Shown: in pieces, positions 710-63,825 of the stretch
How the letters are laid out: every line of letters begins with the position of its first letter
Position numbering within the stretch: the stretch's first letter is position 1
DNA from: Nereocystis luetkeana
Lineage: Eukaryota; Sar; Phaeophyceae; Laminariales; Laminariaceae
Assembly: GCA_031213475.1 (NCBI GenBank)
Contig: JARUPZ010000035.1
Location: 1,625,699-1,689,698, forward strand
Direction of reading: 5' to 3'
Length of the DNA: 64,000 bases
The notes under the pieces: generated by a model
What the model was told of the DNA's origin: nothing
The model's input: only the letters and a program-made list of their open reading frames with translations
Databases searched by the model: none
Translations under genes and position numbers: made by a program

Positions 710-1890
710 ATAATAAGTGGTCGAGGGGGCAAGAGGTCAATGATGGTGGGATCGATTTTCAGCGATTTCGTGTTCCAAGAGTTCGTGGTAGGACCCCGAC
801 CAGAGAGCCACCCCACGGCAGTATAGGGGTTCACCAGACGTTCCTGAGCCCCCCCCACACTAGGAGCTCAATATCTCACCCGATACAATACTTACTTGGA
901 AGAAATTTGTTCGCGGCACGCAACCGGCAACTTGTATGCGCTATTATATTAATAGTAGTCCTGAAACGATTATACGAGTAAAATGTTCTCCGTAACTAAC
1001 TGCTGGTTCCTCACTTACTTACTTGGGGAACTCAATCGGTCAGAAAACTTTCGCACCTATAGAGTGCAACCCCTATTTACCGTGGGGTGACTCACCATCG
1101 TTCACGAATTCTCGCACCTTATCCCGCAACAGCATACCGCCGCTCGGCCCGAACGAACTGCTCGCTCCTCGCTTTATTATTAGTCCCTTCCAATCCCACC
1201 GCACGTACTCTTCAGGTGCTCGTAGGATCCCCTCTTCTGGTCGCTATTCGCTATAATAATAGGAGGGTCTTGTGGTTTCGGCGAGATAATCTTCAAAATA
1301 TGGATGCAGTCCTTCGGCGATCACTTCTGCAGGTTCGCACACGCAGATCTCAAAGTGTCTCCCACGCGGTTCTATCCCGCACGCAAGAATTGTCGCGCGT
1401 CCTCCCTCGCTGTCGATGCTACCTGTATGTAGCATGAAAGCCGCCTAAAAGGCCCTAGGTTTTAGCGGACTCACCCTATATCCGTGTCTGTGCGGCGAGG
1501 TGAAGAGGGCGGTACCTTTTTTTCGACCGCATCAATACGTGGTGAAACACACCCACATCAACCATATTCCAGACGTATCACGGGGCTGGATGATGATAAG
1601 CTGATTGAGAATGGAAACGACCCTCGCGACAACTCTTTTTGACGACAATTCTTTTCATCTGGCATGAAAAGCTGCCTGTTGAACTCTCGGTGTTTTTGAG
1701 GCTTTCGTATTTGTCTCTTGGGGGCAAAGTTTTTTTTTTCTTTCGCGCCCCGGAGAGCGAGAGGAAACCCCTGTCCACACTTATTTCTCAAGTGACTACG
1801 AGTACTGAGGAGTCGGGGCCTTGCTACGTACCAGGTATACAACAAGAAGTTGTGGTCTGGGTCGGCCTTAGCTGGGGGTGCCTTAGCTGG
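710..1890. other. No recognised gene
   Basis: Only short open frames without recognisable domains are present. One TACCAGGTA 9-mer lies at 1829-1837 and one TATTAATA 8-mer at 947-954. Confidence 0.4.
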
Positions 1891-1896
1891 GGGTGC

Positions 1897-1986
1897 AGGC
1901 TGGACCCCAGTCCCGTTTTTGGGACAATTCACTTGGAATTAGACTGGTTTGTCCACAAATCGGGACTGCGGTACTAAAGGGGTTAA
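1897..1986. mobile_element. MITE family F2, copy b (diverged)
   Basis: This copy has the family core CCCAGTCCCG...GGGACAATTC, the inverse TTTGTCCAC...CGGGACTGCGGT, and the GGGGTTAA terminus. The left end is eroded, so the left boundary is approximate. Confidence 0.6.
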
Positions 1987-2336
1987 CATAGTATGGCGTA
2001 TGTACTCTATTAATAGGTCGACGTGTGGGCTTGACGGGTTATTTTTAATAGGATGTGCAGTCGATCTCTGCTTACTACAATGGTCATTCTGGGTGGTGCC
2101 GTGTTGTTTGTATGCGATACTCCACCCTTACGCGTCCTGAAAAACGTGTTGTAACGAGAGCGCTGATTCAGGGTATCTGAAACGGATGCTGGCTGCCTGG
2201 GCTGAGGTCTTAAGTCATTGTCACAAGGCAACACATGTAGGGTTCTCCAATAGTTGGTAGGAGTGGCAGCTGGGGACCCCAGGTTACCACTCAGAGATGC
2301 ATAACCCAAAAAGAGAACACAAAGACGAGACATCAA

Positions 2337-2720
2337 TGACCAACCGAAGAGGCCGTGTTGGTTCTTTTCCGTTTAGTTCTCGTGGTTTTCGATTTTATTT
2401 ATCCAGTGTTTCAACCGAAGAGGCCGTGTTGGTTTTTTTCCGTTTAGTTCTCGTGGTTCTCGATTTTATTTATCTAGTGTTTCTGCTTGCTTTTGGTGTG
2501 TCGTGTTTCAACCGAAGAGGCCGTGTTGGTTCTTTTCCGTTTAGTTCTCGTGGTTTTCGATTTTATTTATCTAGTGTTTCTGCTTGCTTTTGGTGTGTTG
2601 TGTTTTAACCGAAGAGGCCGTGTTGGTTCTTTTCCGTTTAGTTCTCGTGGTTTTCGATTTTAGTTTTGCGTTTGCTTTTCGCCTTGCCTTGTAGGCTAGC
2701 TTATGGTTTTAACCGAGGAG
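2337..2720. repeat. Minisatellite, about 70-100-bp unit
   Basis: Four close units and one diverged unit begin with ACCGAAGAGGCCGTGTTGGT. The units differ by an extra segment containing TGCTTGCTTTTGGTGTG, giving alternating lengths of about 70 and 99 bp. The last unit (ACCGAGGAGGCGGAGTTG) is diverged. An open frame crosses it but its protein is just repeat translation. Confidence 0.85.
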
Positions 2721-2729
2721 GCGGAGTTG

Positions 2730-3235
2730 CCTTCTCTGTTGTGTTCGATTTTCGTTGAATTGTTGAGGACGCAATAGAAGCGATTTATATGCTTAGGCGT
2801 TAGGGGACACTGCGCTTATTTCATCGCTGAATGAGCGTGGGGGGACTTTAGCCATGGAATAGTGGTCGGGCAACCAAACACGCAGTGAAAAAGCAAGGGT
2901 GGGGGTTTTTCTCAGGGATTTCCCACTGATGGCCTTTGCGATTTCGGTTTGGTTGTTTATCCCTGAGGCCGTTATTTGTGTTAAAGGGCTTTGCGGCTCT
3001 TTAAACTTGGTTATAGTCACAAGATTGCGATAGCATAATGCTCATTCCGTCATTCGCATTATGCTAGGGGGCATGTTACGGTTCGGTTGACCGTTTCAGG
3101 AGTTATGATGACATAGAGGCGTTTTCATATTGTAGCTCCGTATATCAGTATACATGTCACGTACGTACGTAACGTACAAGTACATCCAGTAGTAGTGAAT
3201 ACACTCTATCATCACGAGAGAAGCAGTCACTGTAG
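2730..3235. other. No recognised gene
   Basis: No conserved coding pattern or match to the other repeats of the window was seen. A CGTA-rich stretch lies near 3,155-3,180. Confidence 0.4.
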
Positions 3236-3239
3236 TAGT

Positions 3240-3864
3240 TTGTTCTTTCCTGGTATTGTTTTTCACGCGGCAGAATAGTATCTACCGGTACTTGGTATTA
3301 ACGTCGTCACTGGTCTTTGTAGTTTAACGAGTTGTATACCCTTCATGGGGAATAACCCACCACGCAATTATCAGGGACGTGGTATCATAACTACAGTGCT
3401 GCTGCACCTTTTTGTGTCAGACAGTCCAGGAAGAGATGGCGATCGTTGATATTCGTGTGGTAGTAAGGTTCGATTGCTCCTTTTTCACTGCATATCCGCG
3501 AGTCTTCACTCTGACAGCACTCCAGATAGCAGGCAGGTGTGTTCCTCTTTCGTTTTCACGACTACCGTGCGTTTCGTACGGGGTGCAGGCAGCATTTCAG
3601 ACAGTATCCGCTGTAGTCAGCAGCCACGAGTTGGTTAGTGGTGGGAACGGGGGTACTCTATGTTATAGTTGAGAGGATATACCCGCGGCCATGTTAGTTC
3701 AGTTTGCACATTGGTTTTAGCTCGTGTCCGCTTTCTTCGTCTCGTGTATTTTGAGGCAGCCGAATTTTCGGGGGGGTTTTTTTCGAATCTTCCTAAGGCT
3801 CCAGCACATTTATTTGTGTGACCACGGACTCCTTCGTCAGAGAGTTAACGTGAGAACAACAACG

Positions 3865-3913
<49 letters not shown>

Positions 3914-3914: not shown

Positions 3915-3929
3915 TGCAGTATCATACAC

Positions 3930-4425
3930 CTGGTACATACAAACCTGGCACACAGCAAGAAGTATCATACTATTAATATTAATACTCACTCGTAGTTGGG
4001 ACTTGAGGCGCGGATTTGCTCGTAATTACGACATAATTTACATTCAGAATTAATGTTGTCCGTTTGACACAAAACTTGACATAATTTGTCAACTTATTTA
4101 ACCAAATTGCCGACTTTGACCAAATTTGTCAACTTTAGTAAAATATTTCAGATTGGGGGATACAAAACAGCGGTTCCATTCAACTCGGAGCCCTTCGACT
4201 GACTTTTTGTTCCGGGGCGGCAAAAAACAAAAAATCAAATTACACCCCATCCATCCATGGAGATAGAGCTCTGTTCTGTCAAGGAGTTCGAACGTATTAT
4301 ATTCGTAGGTAGAGAGGCGTATTACTTTGTCAGTTATATACTAGTTCAGAGTACGTACGCTTGTTTCCGGACAATATACATACCTGGTATACTGGTATAA
4401 TAAAAGAATACCGGTAGCATCGGCG
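3930..4425. other. No recognised gene; AT-rich with short direct repeats
   Basis: Near 4,060-4,140 there are several short repeats of the type TTGACATAATTT and CCAAATTTGTCAAC. Two overlapping TATTAATA motifs lie at 3,971-3,984 and one TACCTGGTA at 4,381-4,389. No domain was recognised. Confidence 0.4.
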
Positions 4426-4819: not shown

Positions 4820-5225
4820 GTCCGTTGGGCTTAAGGTAAAAGGTTAACCAATCGCCTATCCAATCTAAGCCTTATAACACTCTCCCCCCCTGGAACGGAG
4901 CGGATATACGGGTCGGCGCGTGACACCAACACGCGGTTCCAATTTCTGGGGATCCAGAAGTATTTTTCAGATTCTTGACATACATGAGGAAACTCACTTT
5001 TCTTTTAAAAGCGATTTCATGTTGGACGTGAGATTCGAACTCACGACCAACTGCCCATGTCTTGCCGTCGTTGGGCTATTACGGGGGACCATAGTTAATA
5101 GGACCTATGGTATACATAAAAACCTATATATTTAACCATTTTCACCAACAATATTTGGTCCTATTAATTATGGGCCCCCGTAATAATAAAGGTGAAAGGT
5201 TAACCAGTCGCCTACCCAATCTAAG
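4820..5225 (-). mobile_element. tRNA-derived SINE family S2, reversed pieces interrupted by a MITE
   Basis: Read on the minus strand, 5,225 to 5,184 has the S2 head (ATGAGGCTTAGATTGGGTAG, then CGACTGGTTAACCTTTCACC). The sequence resumes after the MITE at 5,078 with the box A-like TAGCCCAACGACGGCAAG and box B-like GAGTTCGAATCTC. A further reversed head lies at 4,820-4,895. Related plus-strand copies are at 7,713, 7,976 and 37,697. The intervening 4,900-5,015 was not recognised. Confidence 0.6.
5079..5183 (+). mobile_element. MITE family M, copy 1
   Basis: A 105-bp element begins TTACGGGGGACCATAGTTAA and ends with the inverse GGGCCCCCGTAA, flanked by TA on both sides. Its outer arms pair through TAATAGGACC and GGTCCTATTA, and the centre is asymmetric, which lets copies be oriented. 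It lies inside a reversed S2 SINE between the head and the internal promoter boxes. TA duplication and short length fit a Tc1/mariner-type MITE. Confidence 0.85.
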
Positions 5226-7320: not shown

Positions 7321-7712
7321 ACACACACGGATCGTTGGTTGTGAGTTCGATCTCACGTCCACCATGAAAGAAACCGCTTTGTAAAGAAGAACGAATTTTC
7401 CCATGTACCAGGTATGTCATGAATCTGATTCGTACAGCACTCTTGAAACTTCCTGGATCCCCCGAGATTTCTCCGGACACGGCCTGTGTATACGGCCCCA
7501 TACGAAGGCGATTGACGCGTTCTGCGACAGAGGTGGCACATTTCCGCTGAAAGGTTTTCTGAATGGCGGGGTTCCTTGACCCAGACTCGCCGGAATGCCG
7601 TTCTTGTTTCGAAAAATGACGTTTTCGTATACTCGGGCCATGGGATTATTCATCATCACAGGATGCAATTAGGTTTTTGCTGGCGTCAGTTTTCGGGTGA
7701 GGTATGGAGCGG

Positions 7713-8774: not shown

Positions 8775-8783
8775 TACCTGGTA
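8775..8783. repeat. TACCTGGTA scar with empty-site evidence
   Basis: Here the RP5 repeat reads ATGTACCTGGTACTCACTAT, while its relative at 44,843 reads GTGTACTCATTAT. The difference is 7 bp at a TA. Confidence 0.7.
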
Positions 8784-8994: not shown

Positions 8995-9300
8995 TACATA
9001 CATGGATGGCAGCTTGAATGGACTAATTTATGTGCCGGTGTGGCCACGTCTAGAGGCAATAATGGGGGTACTATGCAACCGCCTCGTGGGTGCCTTAACC
9101 CGGAACACCAGGTGGTGCGATCATTCCCCTCGTGCGGTGTAAAGGTTCTCCACCCCGCAAAAAAATAACTCGATCGCCGGCTGTGACCGACCGCCGAAAA
9201 AAAAAAACGGTCCCCTGGTCGTCTAGCTCCCGTAGCGAACGGCATGTTTTACAGTGTCCTAGCCAATCAACGCCTACCCAACCTATACACTCCGATGTAC
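8995..9300. other. No recognised gene
   Basis: Unrecognised sequence between RP5 and a G-rich tract, with a TACCAGGTA 9-mer at its right edge (9,298-9,306). Confidence 0.35.
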
Positions 9301-9311
9301 CAGGTATAATA

Positions 9312-10440: not shown

Positions 10441-10540
10441 AACATACCTGGTGGCAGATTTTGATACGATTACTTCGTCGGTCTCGCTTTTCCACTGTTT
10501 TTACCTGAAAGCACCTGTATGTGCATACGACGGACAATAG

Positions 10541-12124: not shown

Positions 12125-12190
12125 CAACAGCGACATTGAAGTTATCTCCCGACAAGCGTTCTGCTGTCTCTGAACTTATTTCGATACATT

Positions 12191-12900: not shown

Positions 12901-13628
12901 CAAAATCTATTATAGGGAGCTGGAGTATCCTCGCCAGGGGCCGGGAAACACCATCACCAAGAACTACAATATTTAACAAAAGATTCCTCACCAGGGACCG
13001 GAACGTCATCATCAGAGAATGGAACACTACCACCGCAACAAGCTGGAGTGTCATCATCATCAGGATGTATCATCGTGTGCATCTTCTTTTTTACCCGGGG
13101 ACGCACCTGGGGGATACAGCAGGGAACTCTGGTAAAGTACTACTTACTGCCTGTATCTGGTTGTCTTTTGAGCAAGCAGTAAACCACTTGCAGTGATCGT
13201 CCACATTGTTCCTTTGTTTGTTTTTGGGGCGGCAGGAACTTTCGACCAGGTTTATTCTTTCCTGTGATTGTAGCGGATCGACAAACCATTTTCACTTCAT
13301 AAAGACTACCAGGTACTCCTGCAGCAACCCTCGTAGTATGTAGTTTAGGTATACACACCCACCTCATACAAGCAGGTGTTGCAGTAGTATTAAATAGAAC
13401 AGAACGATTCTATGTTCGGTAATTTTATTGTGCCCTTTATGTGTTGAATTCACTCCTTGGATCTCATACGGTCGGTACATCATGTACAACTGATTATCCT
13501 TGGAACCATCATGCAGGTACATTATGTACAAATAAGTGTTCCCAAAACAATATCACTCCTTGATGTTGCATGTGTGTTTCTTTTTAAGAAGTTTTAGCAT
13601 GTAACGCAGAGTAAGAAAGTGTACGCTT

Positions 13629-14460: not shown

Positions 14461-16743
14461 GGTTATGAGCCTCGTAACGCGTAAACGCGGCAAGCTACTA
14501 GCAGCGGTGGCCCAAGACTGCCACCCTGGACTGCTACTGGCTCGCTATACATACAGCAGGAGGAGGACTGGACTTTTTCAAGATCAAGAAACCTGCTGCT
14601 ACGTACGACGAAAAGGAAGCTTCTTCTGCGACGAGAGGAACGAAACATCGAAGGTCCACGTACTTCGTTGAAACGTGAGTGACACGTGGTACATATACCG
14701 CGTGCTTGTACGAGGGTCCTGCGTAGGGCATTATATTACTGCTGTAGTTCACTACTGCAGTACTGCTGTAGTTCACTGCTGCTGTAGTCTAGTTGCTGTA
14801 ACTACCATAGAGACACCTACAGAGTACCACCGCGTAGGAGTTGTGACAATCTCACCTTCTCCGCTTTGTCTTTCCATAGACGAGGACCAATAATCTCGAG
14901 AAAACCTTGAGTGTACCTGCTGCTGTACGCTGAACAACAGCAACTCCACTTTACAACCCAGCAAACCTGAGGTTAGGAGCTCTGCTGAGCGTAGTCCATC
15001 TCGTGGATCGTAAGCCTCAGTTACTCTGAGCAACAGCGACATTTAAGTCAACTCCCGACAAGCATTTCTGCTGTCTGTTAAAGGAGCGCTGAACTTCGAT
15101 AAATAAATTAACCCGCTGTACGCTGCCCAACAGCAACTCCACATTACAACCCAGTAAATCTGAAGGTTAGGAGCTCTGCTGAGCGTAGTCCATCTCGTGG
15201 ATCGTAAGCCTCAGTTACTCTGAGCAACAGCGACATTGAAGTTATCTCCCGACAAGCGTTCTGCTGTCTCTGAACTTATTTCGATACATTTCCAAGAGGG
15301 CCTTCGGCCCCAGAGAGATTTTCTTTTCTCCAAGAGGGCCATCGGCCCCAGAGAGATTTTGTTTCGACAGTCGTCATTGGACTCCACGTGGATCCGTGAC
15401 CCCACACGACCGTTGAAACAAGAACTATAATAATAGCAAATAGTTTCTCCGAGGAGGATACGTACGACAACAGTTTAGTTTCGTGTCTTGATCACACAGC
15501 ACAGAGCAGTACTGCTATCTACTGTGTGCATCTCACCTCCGGCCATATTTCTCATACGAAGTGTGGACTCGAAAAATCTTGACTCAACGTCGAGTATTAT
15601 TATACTGCTGTACGCTGTCAAGGACAACTTCGCCACAACTCACAGCACCGCTGGGGTTAAGGAGCTCTGCCTAGTGTAGTCCACATCGTGGATCGTCAGC
15701 CTCGGGCAATCCGAGCTGCAGTTGTATAGAAGTAACTCCCAGCGGTACCACCGTCTGTAAAAAGGGACCCTGACTCTGCCTGACTTCAAAATTTTCCAAC
15801 AGGGACCTCCCCGCGGGATCATCAAGGAGAAGCCCCCGGAAATAACTCAAATCTCGATAGTGCATCGCGTCGAGTACTTACGTAGCTTGGTGCTGTTTTA
15901 ATAGCTACCCCAAAGACAATCACAGTACTCCTGTAGATTAGAGGCATTGCTAGGCGCCATCCACTACTACTGTGGATTTGTCAGCCTCGTGAATCACGAG
16001 CAAAATCTATTATAGGGAGCCGGAGTGTCATCGACGGCAGACAGCGGGAAACACCATCACCAAGAACTACAATATTTAACAAAAGATTCCTCACCAGGGA
16101 CCGGAACGTCATCATCAGAGAATGGAACACTACCACCGCAACAAGCTGGAGTGTCATCATCATCAGGATGTATCATCGTGTGCATCTTCTTTTTTACCCG
16201 GGGACGCACCTGGGGGATACAGCAGGGAACTCTGGTAAAGTACTACTTACTGCCTGTATCTGGTTGTCTTTTGAGCAAGCAGTAAACCACTTGCAGTGAT
16301 CGTCCACATTGTTCCTTTGTTTGTTTTTGGGGCGGCAGGAACTTTCGACCAGGTTTATTCTTTCCTGTGATTGTAGCGGATCGACAAACCATTTTCACTT
16401 CATAAAGACTACCAGGTACTCCTGCAGCAACCCTCGTAGTATGTAGTTTAGGTATACACACCCACCTCATACAAGCAGGTGTTGCAGTAGTATTAAATAG
16501 AACAGAACGATTCTATGTTCGGTAATTTTATTGTGCCCTTTATGTGTTGAATTCACTCCTTGGATCTCATACGGTCGGTACATCATGTACAACTGATTAT
16601 CCTTGGAACCATCATGCAGGTACATTATGTACAAATAAGTGTTCCCAAAACAATATCACTCCTTGATGTTGCATGTGTGTTTCTTTTTAAGAAGTTTTAG
16701 CATGTAACGCAGAGTAAGAAAGTGTACGCTTAACGGGAGGAGG
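14461..16743 (+). mobile_element. Internal region 2 of LTR array (non-coding)
   Basis: 2,283 bp, nearly identical to region 1. The clear difference is one block near 16,019-16,050, where CCGGAGTGTCATCGACGGCA replaces the CTGGAGTATCCTCGCCAGGG of region 1, a net gain of 3 bp. Subrepeats, hairpins, primer site and purine tract are all kept. Confidence 0.75.
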
Positions 16744-17563: not shown

Positions 17564-19849
17564 GGTTATGAGCCTCGTAACGCGTAAACGCGGCAAGCTA
17601 CTAGCAGCGGTGGCCCAAGACTGCCACCCTGGACTGCTACTGGCTCGCTATACATACAGCAGGAGGAGGACTGGACTTTTTCAAGATCAAGAAACCTGCT
17701 GCTACGTACGACGAAAAGGAAGCTTCTTCTGCGACGAGAGGAACGAAACATCGAAGGTCCACGTACTTCGTTGAAACGTGAGTGACACGTGGTACATATA
17801 CCGCGTGCTTGTACGAGGGTCCTGCGTAGGGCATTATATTACTGCTGTAGTTCACTACTGCAGTACTGCTGTAGTTCACTGCTGCTGTAGTCTAGTTGCT
17901 GTAACTACCATAGAGACACCTACAGAGTACCACCGCGTAGGAGTTGTGACAATCTCACCTTCTCCGCTTTGTCTTTCCATAGACGAGGACCAATAATCTC
18001 GAGAAAACCTTGAGTGTACCTGCTGCTGTACGCTGAACAACAGCAACTCCACTTTACAACCCAGCAAACCTGAGGTTAGGAGCTCTGCTGAGCGTAGTCC
18101 ATCTCGTGGATCGTAAGCCTCAGTTACTCTGAGCAACAGCGACATTTAAGTCAACTCCCGACAAGCATTTCTGCTGTCTGTTAAAGGAGCGCTGAACTTC
18201 GATAAATAAATTAACCCGCTGTACGCTGCCCAACAGCAACTCCACATTACAACCCAGTAAATCTGAAGGTTAGGAGCTCTGCTGAGCGTAGTCCATCTCG
18301 TGGATCGTAAGCCTCAGTTACTCTGAGCAACAGCGACATTGAAGTTATCTCCCGACAAGCGTTCTGCTGTCTCTGAACTTATTTCGATACATTTCCAAGA
18401 GGGCCTTCGGCCCCAGAGAGATTTTCTTTTCTCCAAGAGGGCCATCGGCCCCAGAGAGATTTTGTTTCGACAGTCGTCATTGGACTCCACGTGGATCCGT
18501 GACCCCACACGACCGTTGAAACAAGAACTATAATAATAGCAAATAGTTTCTCCGAGGAGGATACGTACGACAACAGTTTAGTTTCGTGTCTTGATCACAC
18601 AGCACAGAGCAGTACTGCTATCTACTGTGTGCATCTCACCTCCGGCCATATTTCTCATACGAAGTGTGGACTCGAAAAATCTTGACTCAACGTCGAGTAT
18701 TATTATACTGCTGTACGCTGTCAAGGACAACTTCGCCACAACTCACAGCACCGCTGGGGTTAAGGAGCTCTGCCTAGTGTAGTCCACATCGTGGATCGTC
18801 AGCCTCGGGCAATCCGAGCTGCAGTTGTATAGAAGTAACTCCCAGCGGTACCACCGTCTGTAAAAAGGGACCCTGACTCTGCCTGACTTCAAAATTTTCC
18901 AACAGGGACCTCCCCGCGGGATCATCAAGGAGAAGCCCCCGGAAATAACTCAAATCTCGATAGTGCATCGCGTCGAGTACTTACGTAGCTTGGTGCTGTT
19001 TTAATAGCTACCCCAAAGACAATCACAGTACTCCTGTAGATTAGAGGCATTGCTAGGCGCCATCCACTACTACTGTGGATTTGTCAGCCTCGTGAATCAC
19101 GAGCAAAATCTATTATAGGGAGCCGGAGTGTCATCGACGGCAGACAGCGGGAAACACCATCACCAAGAACTACAATATTTAACAAAAGATTCCTCACCAG
19201 GGACCGGAACGTCATCATCAGAGAATGGAACACTACCACCGCAACAAGCTGGAGTGTCATCATCATCAGGATGTATCATCGTGTGCATCTTCTTTTTTAC
19301 CCGGGGACGCACCTGGGGGATACAGCAGGGAACTCTGGTAAAGTACTACTTACTGCCTGTATCTGGTTGTCTTTTGAGCAAGCAGTAAACCACTTGCAGT
19401 GATCGTCCACATTGTTCCTTTGTTTGTTTTTGGGGCGGCAGGAACTTTCGACCAGGTTTATTCTTTCCTGTGATTGTAGCGGATCGACAAACCATTTTCA
19501 CTTCATAAAGACTACCAGGTACTCCTGTAGCAACCCTCGTAGTATGTAGTTTAGGTATACACACCCACCTCATACAAGCAGGTGTTGCAGTAGTATTAAA
19601 TAGAACAGAACGATTCTATGTTCGGTAATTTTATTGTGCCCTTTATGTGTTGAATTCACTCCTTGGATCTCATACGGTCGGTACATCATGTACAACTGAT
19701 TATCCTTGGAACCATCATGCAGGTACATTATGTACAAATAAGTGTTCCCAAAACAATATCACTCCTTGATGTTGCATGTGTGTTTCTTTTTAAGAAGTTT
19801 TAGCATGTAACGCAGAGTAAGAAAGTGTACGCTTAACGGGAGGAGGTAT
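17564..19849 (+). mobile_element. Internal region 3 of LTR array (non-coding)
   Basis: Matches region 2 including its variant block, with a C-to-T change at CTCCTGTAGCAACCC near 19,526 and an extra TAT just before LTR 4. Confidence 0.75.
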
Positions 19850-20653: not shown

Positions 20654-20665
20654 AATACCTGGTAG
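20654..20665. repeat. Target-site duplication split by TACCTGGTA
   Basis: The right flank reads AATACCTGGTAG. Removing CCTGGTA leaves AATAG, identical to the 5 bp at 10,536-10,540 before LTR 1. This supports a single integration of the whole array's founder and a later 7-bp insertion. Confidence 0.7.
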
Positions 20666-20712: not shown

Positions 20713-20930
20713 GCTTGTTTTTTTGCTGGTTTTGTTTTTCACGAGGCAGAATAGTACCTACCATGGTACTTGTTATTAACGTCACTGGTGTTTCTAGTTT
20801 AACGAGTTGTATACCCTTCATGGGGAATAACCCACGCAATTATCAGGGACGTGGTATCATAGCTGTGCTGCCCCTTTTTTGTGTCAGACAGCCCAGGAAA
20901 AGATGGCGATCGTTGATATTCGTGTCTGGT
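20713..20930 (+). mobile_element. Retroposon RP1, partial
   Basis: It follows 3,248-3,465 through TTTTTCACGAGGCAGAATAG, TATACCCTTCATGGGGAATA and GATGGCGATCGTTGATATTC, then stops. No (AAC)n tail is present, so the copy is cut at the 3' side. Confidence 0.65.
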
Positions 20931-26068: not shown

Positions 26069-26209
26069 ATAACTAAATACCCTCTCGAACGGCTGGTGGC
26101 ATGTTGAGCATGGCCAGGCCCCCACTAATAGCTAGATATTGCACCACTGTATATATATACCAGGTATACTACAATATACCAGGTACGGAAGGGAGGTAGA
26201 CTTGGTGCA

Positions 26210-26510
26210 TGGGTTTCCTTTTGTTTCCGAGGTTTTCTTCTTTCGGGAAAGTTATGAGTGATCCATGTTGAAGATCATGCTACACATTGTCGGATGGCAA
26301 GAGAAATAATAATATACCAGGTACCAGGTACCAGTTTCGCGTGCTACGTACGAGTACTGCTGTAGGACGGCCAATCATGTATGTGCATTTATTATTATTA
26401 TTATTATTCCTCTTGCCATCTGACATCTGACAATGTGCAGCATGATCTTCAACATGGATCACTCATAACTTTCCCGAAAGAAGAAAACCTCGGAAACAAA
26501 AGGAAACCCA
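26210..26510. mobile_element. Long inverted-repeat element
   Basis: The left arm 26,210-26,314 (from TGGGTTTCCTTTTGTTTCCG) and right arm 26,390-26,510 (ending GGAAACCCA) are inverse copies. About 70 bp of the outer arm appears perfect and the inner arms carry a small insertion. The loop of about 75 bp contains two overlapping TACCAGGTA motifs. A diverged single arm lies at 36,880-36,965. A transcript would form a long hairpin. There is no coding capacity. Confidence 0.75.
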
Positions 26511-26529: not shown

Positions 26530-27230
26530 AATCTCTACAGCAGCAAGTAATATTACAGGTAGGTCTGAATCGCAAACCCCGTTCGTTCTTAACGTCGTCA
26601 TCTATCTACCCGCACAGTCGGCAGAGAGCCACGCTTTGAGGGCAGCTCATCAGCCCTTCTTTGGCTTTACAGCGCTTGATTTCGTACTCCACGGGCACCA
26701 TCTACCTGGTGAAGACACAGACAGTTAAGACGCTGAACAGTACGTACACAGCCAATATATTAGTGCACCGCTGTGGGAACTTCTCACCTCCTCACCGAAC
26801 TCGCGACATCAGATTCTCTGCGGAACCGACCTACCACACCACAACCAGCCGGCAACTAAACTGCAGAAGAAGGAGGTGAACGCACGTGTGTGTGTTGCCG
26901 CCGGGTCTAATTACTACGCTGAAATCTCGCTCGGTGCTCGTTTTCCCCTCCTTTTCTTCTTTTTATTTTTCATATTCCTCTCGCCTTTTTTTTTTTTTTT
27001 GTATTTTTCGCTTTCCTCTGCATCTCTTTCCTTCTCTCCCCCTTTTTTTTGCCTTTCTTCGTTTTCGTTCTTTGTTTTTCCTGTTTATTATGTACCCTGG
27101 TATATCATGCTACCCTGTGAGCTGGTATTGGTACGTAGCTCTTCCGCTTCGCTCGCGAATCGCTTCGATTTATGTTGTGTTTGTTTCGTCTGTCAGGTCA
27201 CGTATTAATAGTACGCGTGCGTACGTACAG
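26530..27230. other. No recognised gene; pyrimidine-rich centre
   Basis: T- and TC-rich from 26,940 to 27,080. The frames there encode Phe/Ser/Leu strings dictated by composition. Confidence 0.35.
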
Positions 27231-27345: not shown

Positions 27346-27397
27346 CGAAAATTCTACTACATACCAGGTACCAGGTAACCCTTTGGTCTCCCTTTGG

Positions 27398-27835: not shown

Positions 27836-27844
27836 TACCAGGTA
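27836..27844. repeat. TACCAGGTA scar in MITE M3, first half
   Basis: AAAACTACCAGGTATCTATT here corresponds to AAAACCTATATATTT in copy 1, a 7-bp gain at a TA. Confidence 0.65.
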
Positions 27845-27917: not shown

Positions 27918-27933
27918 TACCTGGTACCAGGTA
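27918..27933. repeat. Double scar TACCTGGTACCAGGTA
   Basis: Two overlapping 9-mers share a TA at the site that has one in the other half of the dimer. This fits successive insertion at the same TA. Confidence 0.6.
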
Positions 27934-28009
27934 TATATGTTGAACCATTTTTACTAACAATATTTGGTCCTATTATCTACCTGGTATTAACTATGGTCCC
28001 CCGTAATAG

Positions 28010-29060
28010 TAAACATCAACCCCGCTATCATTTTCTGGGGGAAACGCCCACGGCCCGAGCTGGCAAATTATTTTTTGAGCGTCGCAGATGTGGAGAGCTG
28101 TTTCCGAAGCGGGCAAAGCGGTGCTTTCCATAGTAGATATCACACTTCATGCCTGTTGGTAGGTGGGTAAGTTTACATGTTTAGCGCAACAACAGCACAA
28201 CGGACAACAAAGCAGAAGCCAGACGCGGACAGAGAGAGCCAAACACATTTCATACATAAGTTCTGCCTCTTCTTTTTTTTTTCAAGTATGTCACACTGTC
28301 AATCGAACGAGACCGTCCTAATAACAAACATTCGGGGCGCGAGGGGGGGGGGGGTGGCGTTTATAACAGCTCGCCGGGCTGGTTGGTGTGTACGCGATGA
28401 CGATATGCCGCGCTCGAATCCTGGTGACCAGCGGAAAAAATACACAGCCCAGATCATACCGATGAGGCAAAAACGAGATCGCGAGACACACAGCTGAGTA
28501 GTGTAGCGCACATGCCAATATAATTGCGCGCGCCGAGCGATAAAACTCGGAAGTACGTTTCAGTTCCCAAATATTCGAGGTGAAAAAAAAAAATGAACCA
28601 AAGACCGGGGCAGAGGGGGGGGAGCACCGCCGTATCATGTACCAGGGTACGTACGTACGACTTTATTCGTTCAGAAGTGTGAGAACCGCCTGGCTGGTGC
28701 GCAACTAACCACTTGGTTGTGCATTCTGTCACCACGGGTGAGTATAGGACTGTTGTGGCGAAAACAATGTTCAAATTTCGGGTCTCGACCGGCCGAATCT
28801 GACTGTTTTTTTTTTGTTTTGTTTTGTCATGATCCGTACAAAAGTTTCTCGCGAACATCTGAAGGGCGCACAAAAAAAAGAGAAAATTGCCTACTACTGG
28901 TATACGCTCCTTCTGAGGTCAGAATCAGAGACAAAAAAACAGGATTGGTGGGGACCAGAAGAAGTGGTGAGAGTTCCGGACGAAACGACGAAAGCCTGCT
29001 TTGAAAAAAAAAACTACCGGGTATTTTACATGGTTTTAGTATGCTGTCTACCTATGTACG
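28010..29060. other. No recognised gene
   Basis: Frames of up to 139 codons occur on the minus strand (28,454-28,873) without recognisable domains. Confidence 0.3.
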
Positions 29061-29349
29061 TTGTGATGGTATCCCCTCTCCCCTGATGCGGCGCTATGAT
29101 TTGTACCAGGTAGTAAGTTTTCCCTCATCATTTTGCACCTGGCAGGCGTTGTCGTCTGCCTGTCTGGTGTGAATATCTCGCCCCTTCGTTCAGAAGGCAT
29201 CCGGCGATCAACCAAGCGACTACACAGTAGTAAAAAGATGATAACTTTCAAGCACCTTTGTGTTGGCGACTACAGCAGAGCAGAGCTGGAAGCACTGCCT
29301 GCTAGCTGTACTCGGTCCCTAGATCCATGCTGCCCCAAACCAGAACAAC
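29061..29349 (+). repeat. Interspersed repeat A, left copy
   Basis: It aligns with 36,239-36,502 through CACCTGGCAGGCGTT, GAATATCTCGCCCC, GTTCAGAAGGC and CCCTAGATCCATGCTGCC. The two copies bracket the copia element in the same orientation, but their order relative to repeat B is mirrored, so a simple LTR pair does not explain them. Confidence 0.65.
29104..29112. repeat. TACCAGGTA scar in repeat A
   Basis: GATTTGTACCAGGTAGTAAG in this copy corresponds to GATTTGTAGCAATT at 36,280-36,295, again 7 bp extra at a TA. Confidence 0.65.
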
Positions 29350-33656: not shown

Positions 33657-33767
33657 TTACGAGGGACCATAGTTAATAGGACCAAATCTTGTTAGCAAAA
33701 ATAGCGAGACATATAGCTGTTTGAGTGTACCTTAGGTCCTACCTGGTATTTAATATGGTCCCCCGTA
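33657..33767 (-). mobile_element. MITE family M, copy 4 (inside copia)
   Basis: TTACGAGGGACCATAGTTAA to ATGGTCCCCCGTAC with the reversed centre GGACCAAATCTTGTTAG. It lies between gag and the protease region of the copia element and so inserted after it. Confidence 0.8.
33740..33748. repeat. TACCTGGTA scar in MITE M4
   Basis: GGTCCTACCTGGTATTTAAT here corresponds to GGTCCTATTTAAAAT in copy 2, exactly 7 bp more at a TA. Confidence 0.7.
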
Positions 33768-43582: not shown

Positions 43583-43694
43583 TTACGGGGGACCATAGTT
43601 AATAGGACCAAATATTGTTAGTAAAAATGGTTAAATATATACCTGGTAGGTTTTTATGTATACCATAGGTCCTATTAACTACGGTCCCCCGTGA
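43583..43694 (-). mobile_element. MITE family M, copy 6
   Basis: TTACGGGGGACCATAGTTAA to CGGTCCCCCGTGA with reversed centre and TA on the left. It contains the scar at 43,640. Confidence 0.85.
43640..43648. repeat. TACCTGGTA scar in MITE M6
   Basis: TATATACCTGGTAGGTTTTT here against the reverse of copy 1 (TATATAGGTTTTT) and copy 8 (CATATAGGTTTTT). The sole difference at this point is 7 bp at a TA. Confidence 0.75.
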
Positions 43695-45059: not shown

Positions 45060-45560
45060 ATACGAATGCGTTGATTGGGGGGCGCGCAGGTTATTCGAAA
45101 ACCCTCGGGGGGTTGAGGTCACACACACCGTATCGCGCGGGTGACCAGATGACACGCCCCTCCCCACCAGGGACGAATATCACAAGTCGACTATCTCTCC
45201 AAAAGGACCGAAAGTGGTGGCGTCGGAGAGAGCTCTTCTTCCAGATGCTCTGGGCGTTTTTTGCACTCTCCCACCTTTCAACATTCGTCGGAGGGGTTGC
45301 ACAGAGAGGGGGTTGCGATCGCTTTTCAGCGCGCGCTCGCTGTTTCCTCAACAACGGCAGGGGTGCTGTGAACGTACACCAGGTACCTGGTACGGTGGAG
45401 CATTGTATTTTCGGAAGGCTCTCTCTCTCGGGGCTACATGTGTTCCCCCCGCCCCCCCGAAAACGCACCATTGCTCGGTATTCTGGCAAACCTTCCCGTC
45501 TTTTTGGGGGGGTAAAAAATCGTGAAGTCGAGAGCTGAAAAAGCGATAGTGCCCCATCGT
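45060..45560. other. No recognised gene
   Basis: Overlapping frames on both strands without domains. A TACCTGGTA at 45,384-45,392 lies next to a CACCAGGTA variant. Confidence 0.3.
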
Positions 45561-48719: not shown

Positions 48720-49790
48720 TACCAGGTATGCTATAACTATCATGCACAGTGTAGTGTAGATGATTTTTTGTTGGGCTTGACTCGAGGCGGAAGGTGTCTC
48801 GTGTGGCAGTTCAGAAACCGTTGAAAAGGGGTGGCTGTTCTCTCGTATCTCGTGAACCGTTGCGCTCGAGGCGTGTACACTGGAGCGGTTATTCTGGCAG
48901 TTGATTTCTTCGAGCCGCAAGCACGGTGGCAGTCCCACGACTAACAAAGGCTGCCTTGGAGGCGTAAAATTTGCTTTTTTTCAGGATGTCCGTCTGTTGC
49001 AAAGGTGGCTATTCTTTGCTTCCGTAACTTTTTTTTTTTTGTTACGTAAAACCGTCGTGATGGAGGTGGATTAGACGGGGTGCGATTTTGGGTATATATA
49101 GGCGTCTGAGGCATGCGAAGGGGGTTGGCTGTTCCGCAGCCATTTGCTTCGAGGCGCAAGGTGGCCGTTTCGGTACTCGTTGAAATGCTTACTGGTCGTT
49201 CTTGCGACCGCTATCTTGAGGAGAGGACGGCCTGCCGTGCGGGTGTGCACGCCCTTGGCTTGAGAGGAGGGAAAAGCGGCCTTGCGCAATTACTGCTGGT
49301 TATCTTGTGGTCTCTACAATACCGGAAATTACTTTTCGGTCTCGACTGATAATAATCCTATTTTTCTGCCACAATCAAACTACTCGTCAGCCGTGGCTTT
49401 GCCAAAAAGGAAACATCAGTTCGCTGCGTCAAACGATCCCGAACGATTAGAGCCCCGTAGGGCCACGAGCATCGATAGCCGCCACTTGCCCCATTTCTGG
49501 GTTGTTGTTCGTACATATGGAGCACCACTGCCTGTTTGGGCTGAACGCCCGTCTTCCAGTCCATTGCGTATGGGTCCAGCGGTCGTACCACTTTCGGCTG
49601 GTACCACAGCGACGAGCGCACGTAGTTGTAATGAGGCCATTTTGCCTACCTGGTATTATTTACGAGGATGAGGCCGAAAAAGCCTCTTCATACCAGGGTG
49701 CGTACAGGAAACCATTGGGCAGAATAGTAGTAATAATAATAGTAAGAATAATAATAATAAGAAGAATAATAATGGTGATGATGATAATAG
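48720..49790. other. No recognised gene
   Basis: A 129-codon frame at 49,282-49,671 shows no domain. Two TACCWGGTA motifs lie at 48,720 and 49,647, and an (AAT)n-like tract at 49,727-49,790. Confidence 0.35.
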
Positions 49791-51609: not shown

Positions 51610-52310
51610 TGAGATACTACTGAAAATGCTCAATTTCAAACAGTTATGTCCCCGAAAACGAGTGTCTGTGCACTTTTGAAGGAGAGTTGAGGGTCGCCAT
51701 TGTCTCGCCACCTTTCGTATAACCTGTGCCTTCTGCAGCCTGCCACTGATTTATGTTGAATGTGCTTTTTGGCTTGAAAGCCCTCCTCATCATAATCATT
51801 GCTGTCGACGGAAGAGGCCACACCGGAAAATAAATCAATGCATCCAACGCTGTCACCCGTACTGGTATGCGAGAAAGTACGCACAAGGTGCCGAATCCCG
51901 CCTTACAAGCGGTTCTTTTATAGTAGGACGCAGCTCACACCCTTCTGTACTCACTCCCGGCTTGAGTCGAGAGAGTTTGTCTCATGGATACTCCAAACTC
52001 ATGGCTTCCATTCCCCCCGAAAAAAATTCACAGCACGGCGGCTGTACGTATCAGCTTGGGTGGGCCCATTCCCTCTGCCAACGGTGGCTTTGAAAACTCT
52101 CTCGCCGCGACGGGGTGCTCATGGCCACTATTGCCCCGGCCTGATCTCCCCATTTACCATTTACCCCTTCTTAAACCCTACGAATCCACCCTATATGTGT
52201 ATACCTGGTAGGTGTATGGACCATACAGAACAGTAGTTCGACGCGATTCGACGAGGGAAGAAAGGGCTGAAGACGTCTCCTCGCGATAAAAAACGCCTTC
52301 GAAGGCAAGA
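51610..52310. other. No recognised gene
   Basis: A 145-codon frame at 51,799-52,236 has no recognisable domain and no supported gene context. TACCTGGTA lies at 52,202-52,210. Confidence 0.3.
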
Positions 52311-53842: not shown

Positions 53843-53849
53843 CCACGGA

Positions 53850-57519: not shown

Positions 57520-57571
57520 CTTTCGTTTCTTGGCCGCACTCGATTTTTTTTCTTGACGTTTTCCTGGACTT

Positions 57572-57582
57572 TGGGGGGAGGT
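57572..57582 (+). promoter_or_regulatory. Candidate polypurine tract of gypsy 2
   Basis: TGGGGGGAGGT lies 55 bp after the coding end, where the plus-strand primer of an LTR element is expected. The 3' LTR would start just after it. Confidence 0.4.
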
Positions 57583-57589
57583 ATTTTCT

Positions 57590-58116
57590 ACTGCTTGACG
57601 TTTTCCCGAGTTTTCGGGACGGGGTTTTTCTGCTATTAATAGGTGTGTTTCTGGTTTGTTTGTTTTTTCTTGGGCTTGGTTGGGGATGGTTTTGTGTATT
57701 TTGTCCTGCCTGCCCCCCCGCTCAGTGTCGGGGCTGGTCTGGGTAATCGGGCCACTCATTTGCGGCACAGGGCGCGTTTCCACTTGTGGCCTGGGTTTAG
57801 GTGGTTCTTGGCATCTCCCGCGTTATTTTTCTTCTCGTTTTTGATATCCACTTTTCGCTTTTCCACGAATCTTCCTCGCCCCCCCCCCCCCACGTTGCGG
57901 GTGACATGGCGATGGCTTTCGTTGACGATCTCTTCCTGCTCGGTCTTCCTTTAATTTTCGTTCCCTACTTTGCCAGCTTCGTTGCCTTGCCATTCAGAGG
58001 TGTTGGGGTGGGTTTTGAGGACCCGCATCTTCGACTCATGTTCTAGTTCGTGGAATCGGGGTTTCCATGATTCTCCCATAATTCTGCATGACAATGTACG
58101 GCTCATCAGCGTGGGC
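57590..58116 (+). other. Probable 3' LTR body of gypsy 2
   Basis: This lies between the candidate purine tract and the right direct repeat. It is T/G-rich on the left with a poly-C run near 57,880. No second copy is present in the window, so the LTR assignment is by position only. Confidence 0.3.
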
Positions 58117-58222
58117 TAGTGTTATGATACTGCCTTGAATGAGGTTAAAAGCCCGGTAATTACCTGGGTTCAGGCACTGGGATCGTATTTGTATTTCTTT
58201 GAAGGCGTATCTTAGGTGGAAA
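58117..58222 (+). repeat. Right direct repeat of gypsy 2
   Basis: Partner of 53,735-53,842, with about one substitution per 8-10 bases, so the insertion is not recent. Confidence 0.6.
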
Positions 58223-58229
58223 ACCAGGG

Positions 58230-60090
58230 GTTTTCCAGAGAGGCACGAGCTTGGCCTCAGTCTCCACCGTGTACGAAAGGAATAAAACTGCTCTTCTTCT
58301 ATCTCTAAGCAAACAACACATTTGAGTACCAACGCGTTCCGACTTGATAGGCAGACCTGTCCAGGGTTTTACCACGTGTCCTTCCTGCTAATATTCCAGT
58401 CGACCAAGAAATAAAATGTTACCACAGTACTATTATTTAGCAGTCTAAAACAGTGACTCTGTTCATTTCGCAACAAACATAGAATCGAACGGTCTCCCAA
58501 TGTTCCTGCCGCCCACAAACAAAGAAAGGAACAATGCGCTTTACGTTCGTACCGCCAGGTACTGCGCTGTACCAGTACCTTTCGGTCTTTTGGCAAAAGC
58601 CAGAAAACGCCGAGAAAAATTACCCGCGGTGCATCGCAACCAGGAAGTATAAGACAGAAGAACCACCCTCCACATGCATGGCCTACCCTTTCAACTGGCG
58701 GAGACGTTGAGACAGTACTGCTGCTGGTTGTAGTTGCGTTGTTGATACGGGTATACCGTTATCACTGTGTACACGCTACACAACAGCAGTATACTACTGT
58801 TGTACACACTATGCAACCCAGTTGTTAGTACTACAGCAGCAGAGTAGTAGTACACTGACTGGTGTTCCGTTACGTATTGCTAAACAAAAAAAGTGTTACC
58901 GTCGCGTAAATCTATTTCCTGTTCCTCGAAACGGTCCAACCAGTTATTCTGCCACAACGCCACAACAACAACAACAACAACAACACCGCTCGCTGTTGAT
59001 GCCCCCCCCGTATGTGCGTGGCCACTGGGCGCGCAGCCTCATAATTCGGCAACCAGCTCTCTTTCACGACAACTTGGCGCTTTCTCTACGTATGAGTATA
59101 AGCATGCTCTCGCATCACAACAGGCCTTCCGGTACTTTCGAGAGCAATCCGCGCGCAGCGGGGAGTTTGCAGGAAGGAGGAGACAACTCTGTCCCGATAC
59201 ATAAAAGATCGTTTGAATTCGAAAATAATATGAAAATATCCTTTACATTTCGGGAAAGTGGTATTTTAATTTGGACCGGTAAATTAGTTTAGATCCAAAT
59301 CTGAGAAGGTGGCCATACTACAGTCAGTCTGCTGTATCCTCGGCAATGACATTATGGACAACAACGACATGTTGCCCACAGAGTTTTGAACAGCAGCAGT
59401 AAGTAGTCCCTGTTTGTATGCTGAACACGTGGGTGGGTCATTGGTTAGATACAGCACGGATAGTATGTACTCGAGGAAGGTTGTTCTTGGTACCTGGTAC
59501 CTGGTATGTATCAGCAGCATCCGCAGCCGGCAGCCGGTAGAAGCTACCTGGTACAGAGCAGTAGTGCTACGAGCTGCTCGAGATCGCTAATCGATTCGTC
59601 ACCACAGGACTATACACTCGCAGGTGATTGGTCAAAAAAAGGTGACGACGATCCTCGATCTCCCATGGATATCGGAGATCTTGCTTCTTCGTGGCCACGC
59701 AAGACCGCAGACATCCGCCCGGGGTTTCCACGCGGGAAGTTCCGTAGTTACTCAAAGCCCATTCTGCCGTCCCATCGAAAAAGTAGTGCACCGTCCCCCC
59801 GAGCCCCTCGACCCCCTATCGCCGGCAACGACACTTGATCCCAAGTTTTCCCGTTGCTGTCTCATTGTGGTGGGTTTGTTGCTGCAAGGTCGGCGATTGT
59901 GATACAGTCTTGTCTTTGTTCTACGGTTTTTCTCAAACCGTTAGGCGATAATACTAGACTTCAAGAGTGATTTGTAGCAACAGAATCAAACACGAACAAA
60001 CCAGTTTCAAAGCCGTAACAAGGTCCTCGAGACTCGAGACGGAGGAGCAGCAGCGCAGCAGCAGCGCTCCACGGAAGGAACTACCGCGTG
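58230..60090. other. No recognised gene; simple repeats and scars
   Basis: (CAA)n lies at 58,963-58,985. TACCTGGTA occurs at 59,491, 59,498 and 59,545. A CTG/CAG-flavoured stretch with inverse short repeats spans 58,710-58,860. A 110-codon frame at 59,506-59,838 has no domain. 59,900-60,094 may be the 5' untranslated region of the exon that follows. Confidence 0.35.
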
Positions 60091-60899: not shown

Positions 60900-61255
60900 T
60901 ACCTGACCCACCTGGTACCTTGCTTGTACCTGGTACCTGGTATTTCTTTCGACGAGGCGATACAACCTCCCTTCCATGATATCATAGCGTATCATAGCGT
61001 GCCGCCGACACGCAACTCGCCGTGATGTACTTTACTCGTACTCTCGCACTCTCGTACTCTCCTATTGCTGCAAAGTCTACTGATTGCTCTAACCTCAACG
61101 ACTTACTGTATTAATATGTAGGAGGACGTTCTGTACACATAACATCGTACCAGATACCAGTATGCACGTATGCACGTAGGAACGGGAGGGTACCCGATTC
61201 TCTTCATGTACTATTAATACAGTAAATAAAACTCGGGTCGTGTACAGCGATACCG
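60900..61255. other. No recognised gene; TA-site motifs
   Basis: Double TACCTGGTA at 60,927-60,942 and TATTAATA at 60,851, 61,109 and 61,212. Confidence 0.4.
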
Positions 61256-61385: not shown

Positions 61386-61389
61386 TGGC

Positions 61390-61905: not shown

Positions 61906-61934
61906 GTTACCTGGTATTAAATAGTACCAGGTAT

Positions 61935-62040
61935 GGTGTGTGTGTTCTCACGTTAAACCGTTCTTTCTACCCGTCGACATCCAGCACAACCAGTGTCCGT
62001 GCCGATTGTTCAATCCTAGAGGAGATACTCGTACAAGTTC
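61935..62040 (-). repeat. Interspersed repeat RP4, copy 3 (reversed)
   Basis: CACGTTAAACCGTTCTTTCT and CAGCACAACCAGTGTCCGTG are the reverse complement of 7,245-7,315, closely matching that copy. It lies next to TACCWGGTA motifs at 61,908 and 61,925. Confidence 0.65.
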
Positions 62041-62049
62041 TGGTATGCA

Positions 62050-62465
62050 AGATTCGCAGCTCGCAGCATAGACAATGTAACACGTACATGCAAACGGCGC
62101 TACTTGCTGGTGTAGGTGGCAACGAACCCAATGTTGGTGGTATCATCATCATGCATGCGATGATCCATGCGCGGCTTTTGAGTTATCAGCTCGTGCTGAA
62201 GTGCGGGTATCGTACGCAATCGCCGAAGTGATGAATGGAGTTTGCGTTTTATTGGGGGCCTTGAGTGCTCCCCGGCCTTTGGTCTCCTCGCCAGGAAACC
62301 TTTGGTCTCCTTGTAGAACGTGCGAAGCAACAGGCACTCGTACCCTCGCGCACGAACAACGCGCCACGGCCTCGGGGAATCGTTCCGTGATGTGCGGGAC
62401 TGGTCGGCACATTGTGCGGGGGGCTTGTGTCGTAAATTTCAACCTTGCACGTCGGCCCAGACCAA
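62050..62465. other. No recognised gene
   Basis: Frames up to 115 codons without domains. Confidence 0.3.
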
Positions 62466-62474
62466 CCCGACCCC

Positions 62475-62530
62475 AGGACTAAACCCTAGCCCTAATCCGA
62501 ACCCTAACCCCAACCCGAACCCTATCCCTT
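62475..62530 (-). repeat. Interstitial telomere-like CCCTAA repeats
   Basis: AAACCCTAGCCCTAATCCGA and ACCCTAACCCCAACCCGAAC form a degenerate CCCTAA array of about nine units. Confidence 0.75.
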
Positions 62531-62774
62531 AGGGGGGCTCGAGGTCGGCAGGGGCGGCCACGCGCCTCTGCCGCGTGTGTTGGTGGCGTTTTTCCAAAAA
62601 ACATCCAGGCGACCCTAAGGCCAGCCTTGCCTTATAAGCCCTGCGCCCTGCACCAGATTTTTTTCGCTGACCTGTCCTGCACATAGGACGAGTCGGCCTC
62701 GGGTGGCGTTGATAGTGATGATGGTGGCGTTTTTTTCTCCTCGTTTTTTTCGTTGGTTTTTTTTCCAGGGCTCT

Positions 62775-62940
62775 TCACGGGTCAGGATTTTTTTTATGTC
62801 TCACGGGTCGAGTCGGGCCGGATCGCGTCGGGTCAGGAGGTTTTCAAAGGTCTCACGGATCGGGTCGGGTCGCCCTTACCCGACCCGACCCGACCCTACC
62901 TGACCTGACCTGACCCGCGAGGTTTGACCCGACCAGTGAA
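62775..62940. repeat. GACCC/GGGTC-based repeat block
   Basis: The left half is GGGTC-rich with spacers like GGAGGTTTTCAAAGGTCTCA. The right half flips to GACCC (CCCGACCCGACCCGACCCTA), so the block is an inverted arrangement of the unit seen at 49,995-50,165. Confidence 0.75.
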
Positions 62941-62944
62941 CAAC

Positions 62945-63825
62945 CTTGATTTTTCCATCTCCGGCTACAGCAGTGGTGGTCAGAACTCAGCTCCGGGACC
63001 ACATAGCAAGCTCCCCCCGCTCCCCCCCTCCTCTCCCCCCTACGGTTTGTGCCTTGCATTTTTGTCGCGAGAAGACTCCAGGCCTTTCTTCCCTCGCCGA
63101 CTCGCGTCTTATCCATCCCGCCTATATACCCGCGCTACGCGCTCTGAGCAGCTGATTCAATTGGAGGGTGTTGCATACCAGGTACCTGGTACTTTTTTTC
63201 AATGCAGATGGGGGGGGGGGGGGGGGGGGGGGCATCTTGGTCATCGACAAGCCCCCCGAGCGTCTTGCGCGAACTGACTTCTACACAGTCTCATCGACTT
63301 ACTGCAGTAGCTTTAGACGGTGGGGTACAACCGCTGCTGCGCCAGCGGGGCCGGTGGATAGCCACGGTTCACGTGAAACGCCCAACCACCTCACCTAGAG
63401 AGCCCACCCACACTGCCACCCATTCGCGACGCACCCACCAACCCTCCCACAAACCCACGCACACTGAATAGATACTTGAGACCTATCATACCGGTAGTAC
63501 TAATGTTATCCCCTCTAGAACCCCCCCCCCCCCCCCACACCGAGATAGAGACCCAATAATGATAACTCTGTTCGGTGCTATCAATCGCCTACTGCTGTTG
63601 GAGCAGCATGCTTCCGGCAGCTCAAGCAGATCATGCTGTGGCCGTGCCGTACGGCCGTACGAGACTCTCCCTTGGGTTGGATCTCGGACCACCATTTTCT
63701 GTCACCTTCCTATCCACACGCCGTGACCATCGTGGTGCTGTAATCGTTATTTTTTTTTAGCAACAATTTTTTCCCTTTGAAGTCCATGTAAGAGGGTTAT
63801 TTATAGTACTCTACGTACAACTCCT
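62945..63825. other. No recognised gene; homopolymer runs
   Basis: Poly-G of about 23 at 63,210-63,232 and poly-C of about 16 at 63,521-63,537. Double scar TACCAGGTACCTGGTA at 63,176-63,191. Frames are short and lack domains. Confidence 0.4.

Follow-up and report, generated by a model that had tools for sequence, protein, structure and literature searches.

Nereocystis window and its dispersed palindrome

We analysed a stretch of 64,000 nucleotides from the brown alga Nereocystis luetkeana (contig JARUPZ010000035.1, hereafter C35; C35:1625699-1689698 of the 465-Mb assembly), hereafter called the window. The subject of this report is the palindrome TACCWGGTA (W being A or T), which is scattered over the window. 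The same stretch contains a family of palindromic miniature inverted-repeat transposable elements (MITEs) with ends TTACGGGGGACCATAGTTAATAGGACC, found at window positions 5077, 10225, 27785, 27890, 33646, 39802, 43572, 46061, 47178, 49785 and 63830. This MITE also occurs in further stretches of the genome, and its central TA is a hotspot for the palindrome. An array of 3.1-kb tandem units, with three to four copies that are mostly 98-100% alike, occupies positions 10540-20508.

A preliminary description based on the sequence of the window had proposed that TACCWGGTA is the scar of an excised transposon, counting about 35 sites where chance would give about 0.5. Every one of the 35 sites was recovered as an exact match where it had been placed (Table 1), and 100 dinucleotide shuffles yielded a mean of 0.43 sites (maximum 3). 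Among the 245 TA-N5-TA words of the window, CCAGG and CCTGG occur 18 and 17 times, respectively, and the runner-up word 5 times, with only two occurrences of C or G at the centre between CC and GG. The genome-wide count suggested as a check in the preliminary description gave 182,395 occurrences of TACCWGGTA in the whole assembly, a ~105-fold enrichment over the reversed pattern used as control (1,744).

Further analyses made use of 26 stretches of 10 kb each, which harbour 72 sites in 260 kb. Together with the window, whose tandem array was cut to one copy, they form a sample of 317.8 kb with 105 sites versus 2.6 expected. Six tandem pairs in the window resemble nested scars, and the de-duplicated window contains 27 separate events. 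One-mismatch neighbours of the motif are near background in the de-duplicated window (16 vs 11.5 expected) and in excess over the larger sample (100 vs 64.2). If this whole excess were decay, it would correspond to ~4% change per base, a figure that is an upper guide because the excess includes some joining variants. The preliminary description would have been overturned if the nine-mer were the terminus of one long repeat. This is not the case in the window because, except in the MITE and tandem-array copies, the sequences on either side of the sites show no relationship.

Insertion at TA, target context and length variants

Comparison of repeat copies with and without the motif showed that the filled allele is TA-CCWGG-TA and the empty allele plain TA, i.e. 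an insertion at TA with duplication of the TA. Among the 11 aligned MITE copies of the window, the central TA carries the motif once in the copies at 27785 and 43572 and twice in that at 27890. It is plain in seven others, and the copy at 33646 has one motif at a different TA. Seven filled/empty pairs had been proposed in the window, of which five are clean (27836, 27918 as a double insertion, 29104, 33740 and 43640). The pair at 8775 is unclean relative to its window partner, although copies elsewhere in the genome have plain TA, and the empty copy proposed for 20656 was not confirmed. Conversely, site 7406, which was not among the proposed pairs, has a plain-TA copy, though its alignment falls short of the stricter span.

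Filled/empty pairs were also found beyond the window; their absence would have spoken against the preliminary description. Merging of tandem sites (8 double) left 97 scar events in the sample, 94 of them testable. A homologous copy spans the site in 25 of these 94 events, with at least one plain-TA copy in 13 and a motif-bearing copy in 6. As a control, we used 1,052 other TA-N5-TA sites. Of the 374 that are spanned, 256 have a filled copy and 56 an empty one, a single tandem word accounting for 23 of the 56. Empty copies are thus over-represented among the scars (13/25 vs 56/374, Fisher P 4e-5). Two of the 13 events, both in L038, sit in AT repeats and are weak; removing them together with one tandem control family gives P 8e-6.

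The sites share a sequence context. In the pooled flanks of separate events, TA is enriched at positions -7 (50/188 vs 12.8 expected), -4 (41/188 vs 14.8) and -2 (36/188 vs 13.6), and T is avoided at -1 (13/188, against a background of 20%). The context is also present in the window taken alone. Because pooled flanks cannot show symmetry, 89 single scars were oriented by their central A. The enrichment was found on each side separately, with TA at -7 in 29 and 20 cases (6.1 expected each), at -4 in 18 and 20 (7.0 expected) and at -2 in 12 and 22 (6.5 expected), which amounts to a palindromic AT-rich preference around TA. This context does not depend on the motif itself. It suggests an integration complex reading a roughly palindromic, TA-centred target.

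Tandem scars are more frequent than expected if TAs were chosen at random (8 vs 0.63 in the sample), those of L018 and L019 being copies of one. Six of the eight pairs have the same central letter and two are mixed A/T. Each scar brings in a TA 7 bases away, and this goes some way towards explaining the tandem arrangement.

Rarer contents between the two TAs, namely CCAG, CCAGGG and CCATGG, occur in the same context. TACCAGTA has 27 sites besides those of a satellite array in L029; TA is found at -7 in 12/50 of its flanks and T at -1, again avoided, in 1/50. For TACCAGGGTA (9 sites) and TACCATGGTA (5 sites), TA is found at -7 in 6/18 and 4/10 flanks, respectively. One dominant product accompanied by 4- and 6-bp relatives at similar sites fits imprecise joining of overhangs. 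The L029 array itself (C1:16000001-16010000) contains TACCAGTA 25 times, the copies lying ~343-348 bp, or double that distance, apart.

Table 1. Scars and variant scars of the window (window coordinates)
Feature	Position	Strand	Remark
Scar TACCAGGTA	1829..1837		Exact match
Scar TACCTGGTA	4381..4389		Exact match
Scar TACCAGGTA	7406..7414		Plain TA in copy 4967-5051 (minus); below stricter alignment span
Scar TACCTGGTA	8775..8783		Plain TA in genome copies outside the window
Scar TACCAGGTA	9298..9306		Exact match
Scar TACCAGGTA, 3.1-kb tandem array	13307..13315		Exact match
Array copy of 13307 scar, following unit	16410..16418		Exact match
Array copy of 13307 scar, unit after 16410	19513..19521		Exact match
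Scar TACCTGGTA	20656..20664		Claimed empty copy not confirmed
Variant scar TACCATGGTA	20759..20768
Scar TACCAGGTA	26158..26166		Exact match
Scar TACCAGGTA	26177..26185		Exact match
Double tandem scar (A,A), one TA in common	26315..26330		Exact match
Variant scar TACCAGGGTA	27093..27102	-	Unproven inverted pair with 28640-28649
Double tandem scar (A,A)	27362..27377		Exact match
Scar TACCAGGTA, MITE hotspot	27836..27844		Seven other window copies have plain TA
Double tandem scar (T,A), MITE hotspot	27918..27933		+14 bp vs empty copies
Scar TACCTGGTA, MITE end	27978..27986		7 additional bases adjoining
Variant scar TACCAGGGTA	28640..28649	+
Scar TACCAGGTA	29104..29112		Plain TA in copy at 36252
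Scar TACCTGGTA, MITE end	33740..33748		Plain TA in 8/9 aligned window copies
Scar TACCTGGTA, MITE hotspot	43640..43648		Seven other window copies have plain TA
Scar TACCTGGTA	45384..45392		Exact match
Scar TACCAGGTA	48720..48728		Exact match
Scar TACCTGGTA	49647..49655		Exact match
Scar TACCTGGTA	52202..52210		Exact match
Double tandem scar (T,T)	59491..59506		Exact match
Scar TACCTGGTA	59545..59553		Exact match
Double tandem scar (T,T)	60927..60942		Exact match
Scar TACCTGGTA	61908..61916		Exact match
Scar TACCAGGTA	61925..61933		Exact match
Double tandem scar (A,T)	63176..63191		Exact match

Probable origin of the motif

TACCWGGTA was probably left behind by a cut-and-paste transposon that inserts at TA, a reading supported in the window by the exact TA edges and the A-or-T centre. 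The occurrence of DDE_1 transposases in the genome also speaks for it. A transposase of the Tc1/mariner-pogo kind would insert its element at TA, duplicating the TA, and at excision would cut 4-5 nt inside each end to leave 3' overhangs starting CCAG(G). Two CCAGG overhangs could anneal at four positions out of five, the mismatch being A against A, and repair would then give CCAGG or CCTGG. Alternatively, 4-base CCAG overhangs would lead to an identical product if they annealed one base out of register and were filled in, and the stagger is therefore taken, by reasoning, as 4-5 nt. Rarer joins would give CCAG, CCAGGG or CCATGG. The element would re-insert into TAs, those of its own scars included, to generate tandem scars. 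Since cut-and-paste movement adds no copies by itself, scars could reach ~180,000 while the elements stay few.

Not all arguments of the preliminary description carry the same weight after this analysis. Its excision-scar reading gains from the common TA-centred context and from the length variants, and none of the results that would have contradicted it was obtained; its donor was not found. The 5-nt stagger and CCWGG ends that it had deduced are compatible with the scar product, as is a 4-nt CCAG overhang with offset, but no element with such ends was found. We infer both the 5-nt stagger and the identity of the transposon. The variable central base, put forward as a sign of mismatch repair, is weaker evidence than claimed, because any fixed nine-mer inserted both ways splits 50:50.

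Several observations weigh against an excision footprint of this kind, starting with the donor. Following the search for TA-flanked elements with CCAGG or CCTGG ends proposed in the preliminary description, TACCWGG/CCWGGTA half-sites were compared for common ends (in the window, and in the window plus 210 kb), all pairs within 6 kb were tested for inverted repeats, and inverted repeats flanked by TA were sought with a general finder. No convincing CCWGG-ended pair of terminal inverted repeats was found in the ~318 kb holding 105 scars. The general finder returned at least 297 candidates and, among the matches listed, those with ends starting with CC gave no convincing element. A non-T base follows TACCWGG in 289 genome copies of the MITE hotspot (control 3), and the 20 of them that were read gave no convincing element. 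The DDE_1 domain (PF03184, pogo/Tc5-type) has at least 28 matches in the genome, and two of these loci, read over 2.7 kb each, showed neither inverted repeats by the criterion used nor bracketing CCWGG ends. PF13358 gave no match. The dominant footprint of 5 bp is also longer than the footprints of 2-4 bp given for the Tc1/mariner-pogo group (PMC7913693) and of 0-4 bp given for the pogo-type transposon Passer (PMC9976928), as far as the excerpts of these two articles go. Finally, the context of the oriented scars falls short of full symmetry (T at -1 in 2 vs 10 cases, 17.6 expected each), only unclear copies are available for 8 of the 25 spanned events, and, of two related words, TACCATA also has a weak -7 signal (12/84, P 0.01) and TACCSGGTA (S being C or G) has none (3/20, P 0.2).

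The search yielded further details. Half-sites show a small excess in the sample (103 vs 76.7 expected), which includes tandem copies and variant scars. Two TACCAGGGTA variants lie inverted at 27093 and 28649, with 12 of the first 14 bases inside the TA matching; they are more probably a couple of variant scars than the ends of an element, since this arrangement turned up just once. The non-T hotspot copies resembled element ends, but the 20 read consist of 12 CCWGGG-TA forms, 3 unclear cases and 5 scars that are decayed or in tandem and beyond which the MITE sequence continues. Similarly, a 53-bp palindrome with TACCWGG ends (L025:388-440) was discarded as an element. It lies inside a perfect palindrome of 61 bp that contains two TACCWGGTA sites (L025:384-444) and, because the symmetry runs into the flanks, more probably represents the inverted duplication of a stretch with a single scar. 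Open reading frames of 352 and 415 residues with the DDE_1 domain are present at the two loci read, and one of them has a sub-threshold Tc5-type DNA-binding domain. PF01359 gave no match, but its control was likewise silent.

The alternative that fares best is that nothing beyond the 7 bp was ever inserted, some integrase-like or end-joining activity adding the 5-bp CCWGG at TA without a larger element. No larger element is present in the sequence read despite 182,395 scars, and TA duplication and target context need an integration reaction rather than a long element. The 4-, 5- and 6-bp variants with their common context, however, resemble end-joining products and not a fixed payload, and we consider this alternative unlikely. 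We know of no enzyme for such a reaction. The same combination of many scars, in many sequence contexts, with no element in the sequence read would also be expected of programmed elimination, in which TA-bounded elements, similar to the internal eliminated sequences of ciliates, would be removed in each generation or tissue, each leaving CCWGG. Yet copies of one repeat family differ in the presence of the scar, and a tandem scar would take several rounds at the same place, in keeping with transposition over time. In ciliates, moreover, excision usually restores plain TA, and we regard programmed elimination as very unlikely.

Spread of the motif within repeats, or as a 7-bp satellite by slippage, is already disfavoured and slightly less credible still. 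Some scars were indeed copied with their repeat (13307/16410/19513, and L018 with L019), and the shared central letter of six of eight tandem pairs is in keeping with slippage. Nevertheless, most flanks in the window are unrelated, two tandem pairs are mixed, and exact TA edges, target context and empty copies are not products of slippage. Least probable of all is a functional binding site under selection, which would account for the sharpness of the nine-mer in the window, where one-mismatch forms are few, but not for a clean 7-bp insertion in only some repeat copies, nor for the one-mismatch excess of the larger sample, which decay predicts. Two other transposon types were rejected: piggyBac, which targets TTAA and excises seamlessly, whereas the target here is TA and a scar remains, and PIF/Harbinger, which duplicates 3 bp of target, whereas the unit doubled in filled copies is TA.

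Returning to excision of a TA-inserting transposon, its likeness to known systems is partial. The footprint of Sleeping Beauty and other Tc1-type elements is TACWGTA. These elements share with the present scars the TA duplication and the odd-length, W-centred palindrome between two TAs, but their footprint has CWG (3 bp) instead of CCWGG (5 bp). A palindromic AT-rich target preference, like that of the scar sites, is reported for ZB (PMC7913693, in the part used here). Transposases of the DDE_1 type, as in pogo-type elements such as Passer, are present in the genome that carries the scars, one with the sub-threshold Tc5-type domain; in the two loci read, no link of these genes to the scars was seen. 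The nearest precedent is that of the Stowaway MITEs and Osmar5 of rice, for which the portion of the report consulted describes footprints and new insertions into the TA that an earlier footprint had left (PMC1925063). As here, short terminal fragments are left between two TAs, in several variants. Those fragments nevertheless comprise 2-4 bp of one end and 1-2 bp of the other, in contrast with the one dominant palindromic 5-bp product at ~180,000 sites.

The scar did not turn up in the literature searched. Of 5.39 million papers, supplements lying outside the search, 217 contain one of the nine-mers, and none of the 30 titles listed deals with transposon footprints. No paper combines at least four of the two nine-mers, transposon, footprint and excision, and searches on 5-bp and 7-bp footprints returned six papers, with nothing on point by title. 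Mariner-Tc1 elements are abundant in Ectocarpus, probably of the same host group, according to the sections used of a recent study, whose main text does not contain the terms footprint or excision (PMC12477816).

More tentatively, and with belief and doubt almost in balance, we propose that a TA-targeting lineage with a self-complementary CCAGG overhang, and hence a 5-nt stagger beyond the reported 2-4, may have moved ~180,000 times at very low copy number. Its scars would then rank among the most numerous dispersed features of the genome and constitute a datable record of excision. To our knowledge, most excision footprints have been described at single loci. With ~182,000 scars of one type, one could study directly how often excision occurs, how it is repaired, which targets are chosen and how ages are distributed, as well as how a transposon can move massively without gaining copies. 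Each scar adds 7 bp and can shift reading frames, making the process a large source of mutations. If the donor does use a 5-nt stagger, the known range of TA-targeting transposases would be widened.

Related words, searches elsewhere and other features

TACWGTA is mildly enriched (81 vs 47.6 expected in the sample without L029 and repeated contexts). It probably comes from another element, because the TA signal at -7 is absent (14/162 flanks vs 11.0 expected). One MITE copy has TACTGTA (window 10303-10309) and is 5 bp longer at the TA that bears TACCWGGTA in other copies; a second element, of the Sleeping Beauty kind, may have left this scar. Two more words are enriched in the 26 stretches and the window, TACAGCAGTA (31 vs 1.8 expected, 18 loci) and TATTAATA (101 vs 9.4, both strands counted), and neither has the -7 signal.

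Searches outside the genome were largely negative. In viral contigs, the tandem double motif was found at 9 loci, which we judged near chance (without a control) and one of which (L002) has a third site; the triple motif and the MITE end were not found there, and no Copia or Gypsy proteins were confirmed. Comparison of window positions 53700-59300 (5.6 kb) with phage records gave no match. Relatives of a Gypsy C-terminus were found at 3 loci in bacterial metagenome-assembled genomes, probably in contaminant contigs, with one motif in 19.4 kb, which is too little to go by.

Two Gypsy polyproteins of the sample, at L031:1057-7338 (+) and L018:1-2730 (-), carry an N-terminal NADAR domain. In the parts of the Ectocarpus study used here, NADAR is reported in one Gypsy lineage, with other hits almost only bacterial and divergent ones in long interspersed nuclear elements of oyster (PMC12477816). 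Taken by itself, the domain would make a brown alga the probable host, and the transposons of the assembly mark it as eukaryotic. Lastly, a short interstitial run of AACCCT telomere-like repeats lies at window positions 62482-62529.

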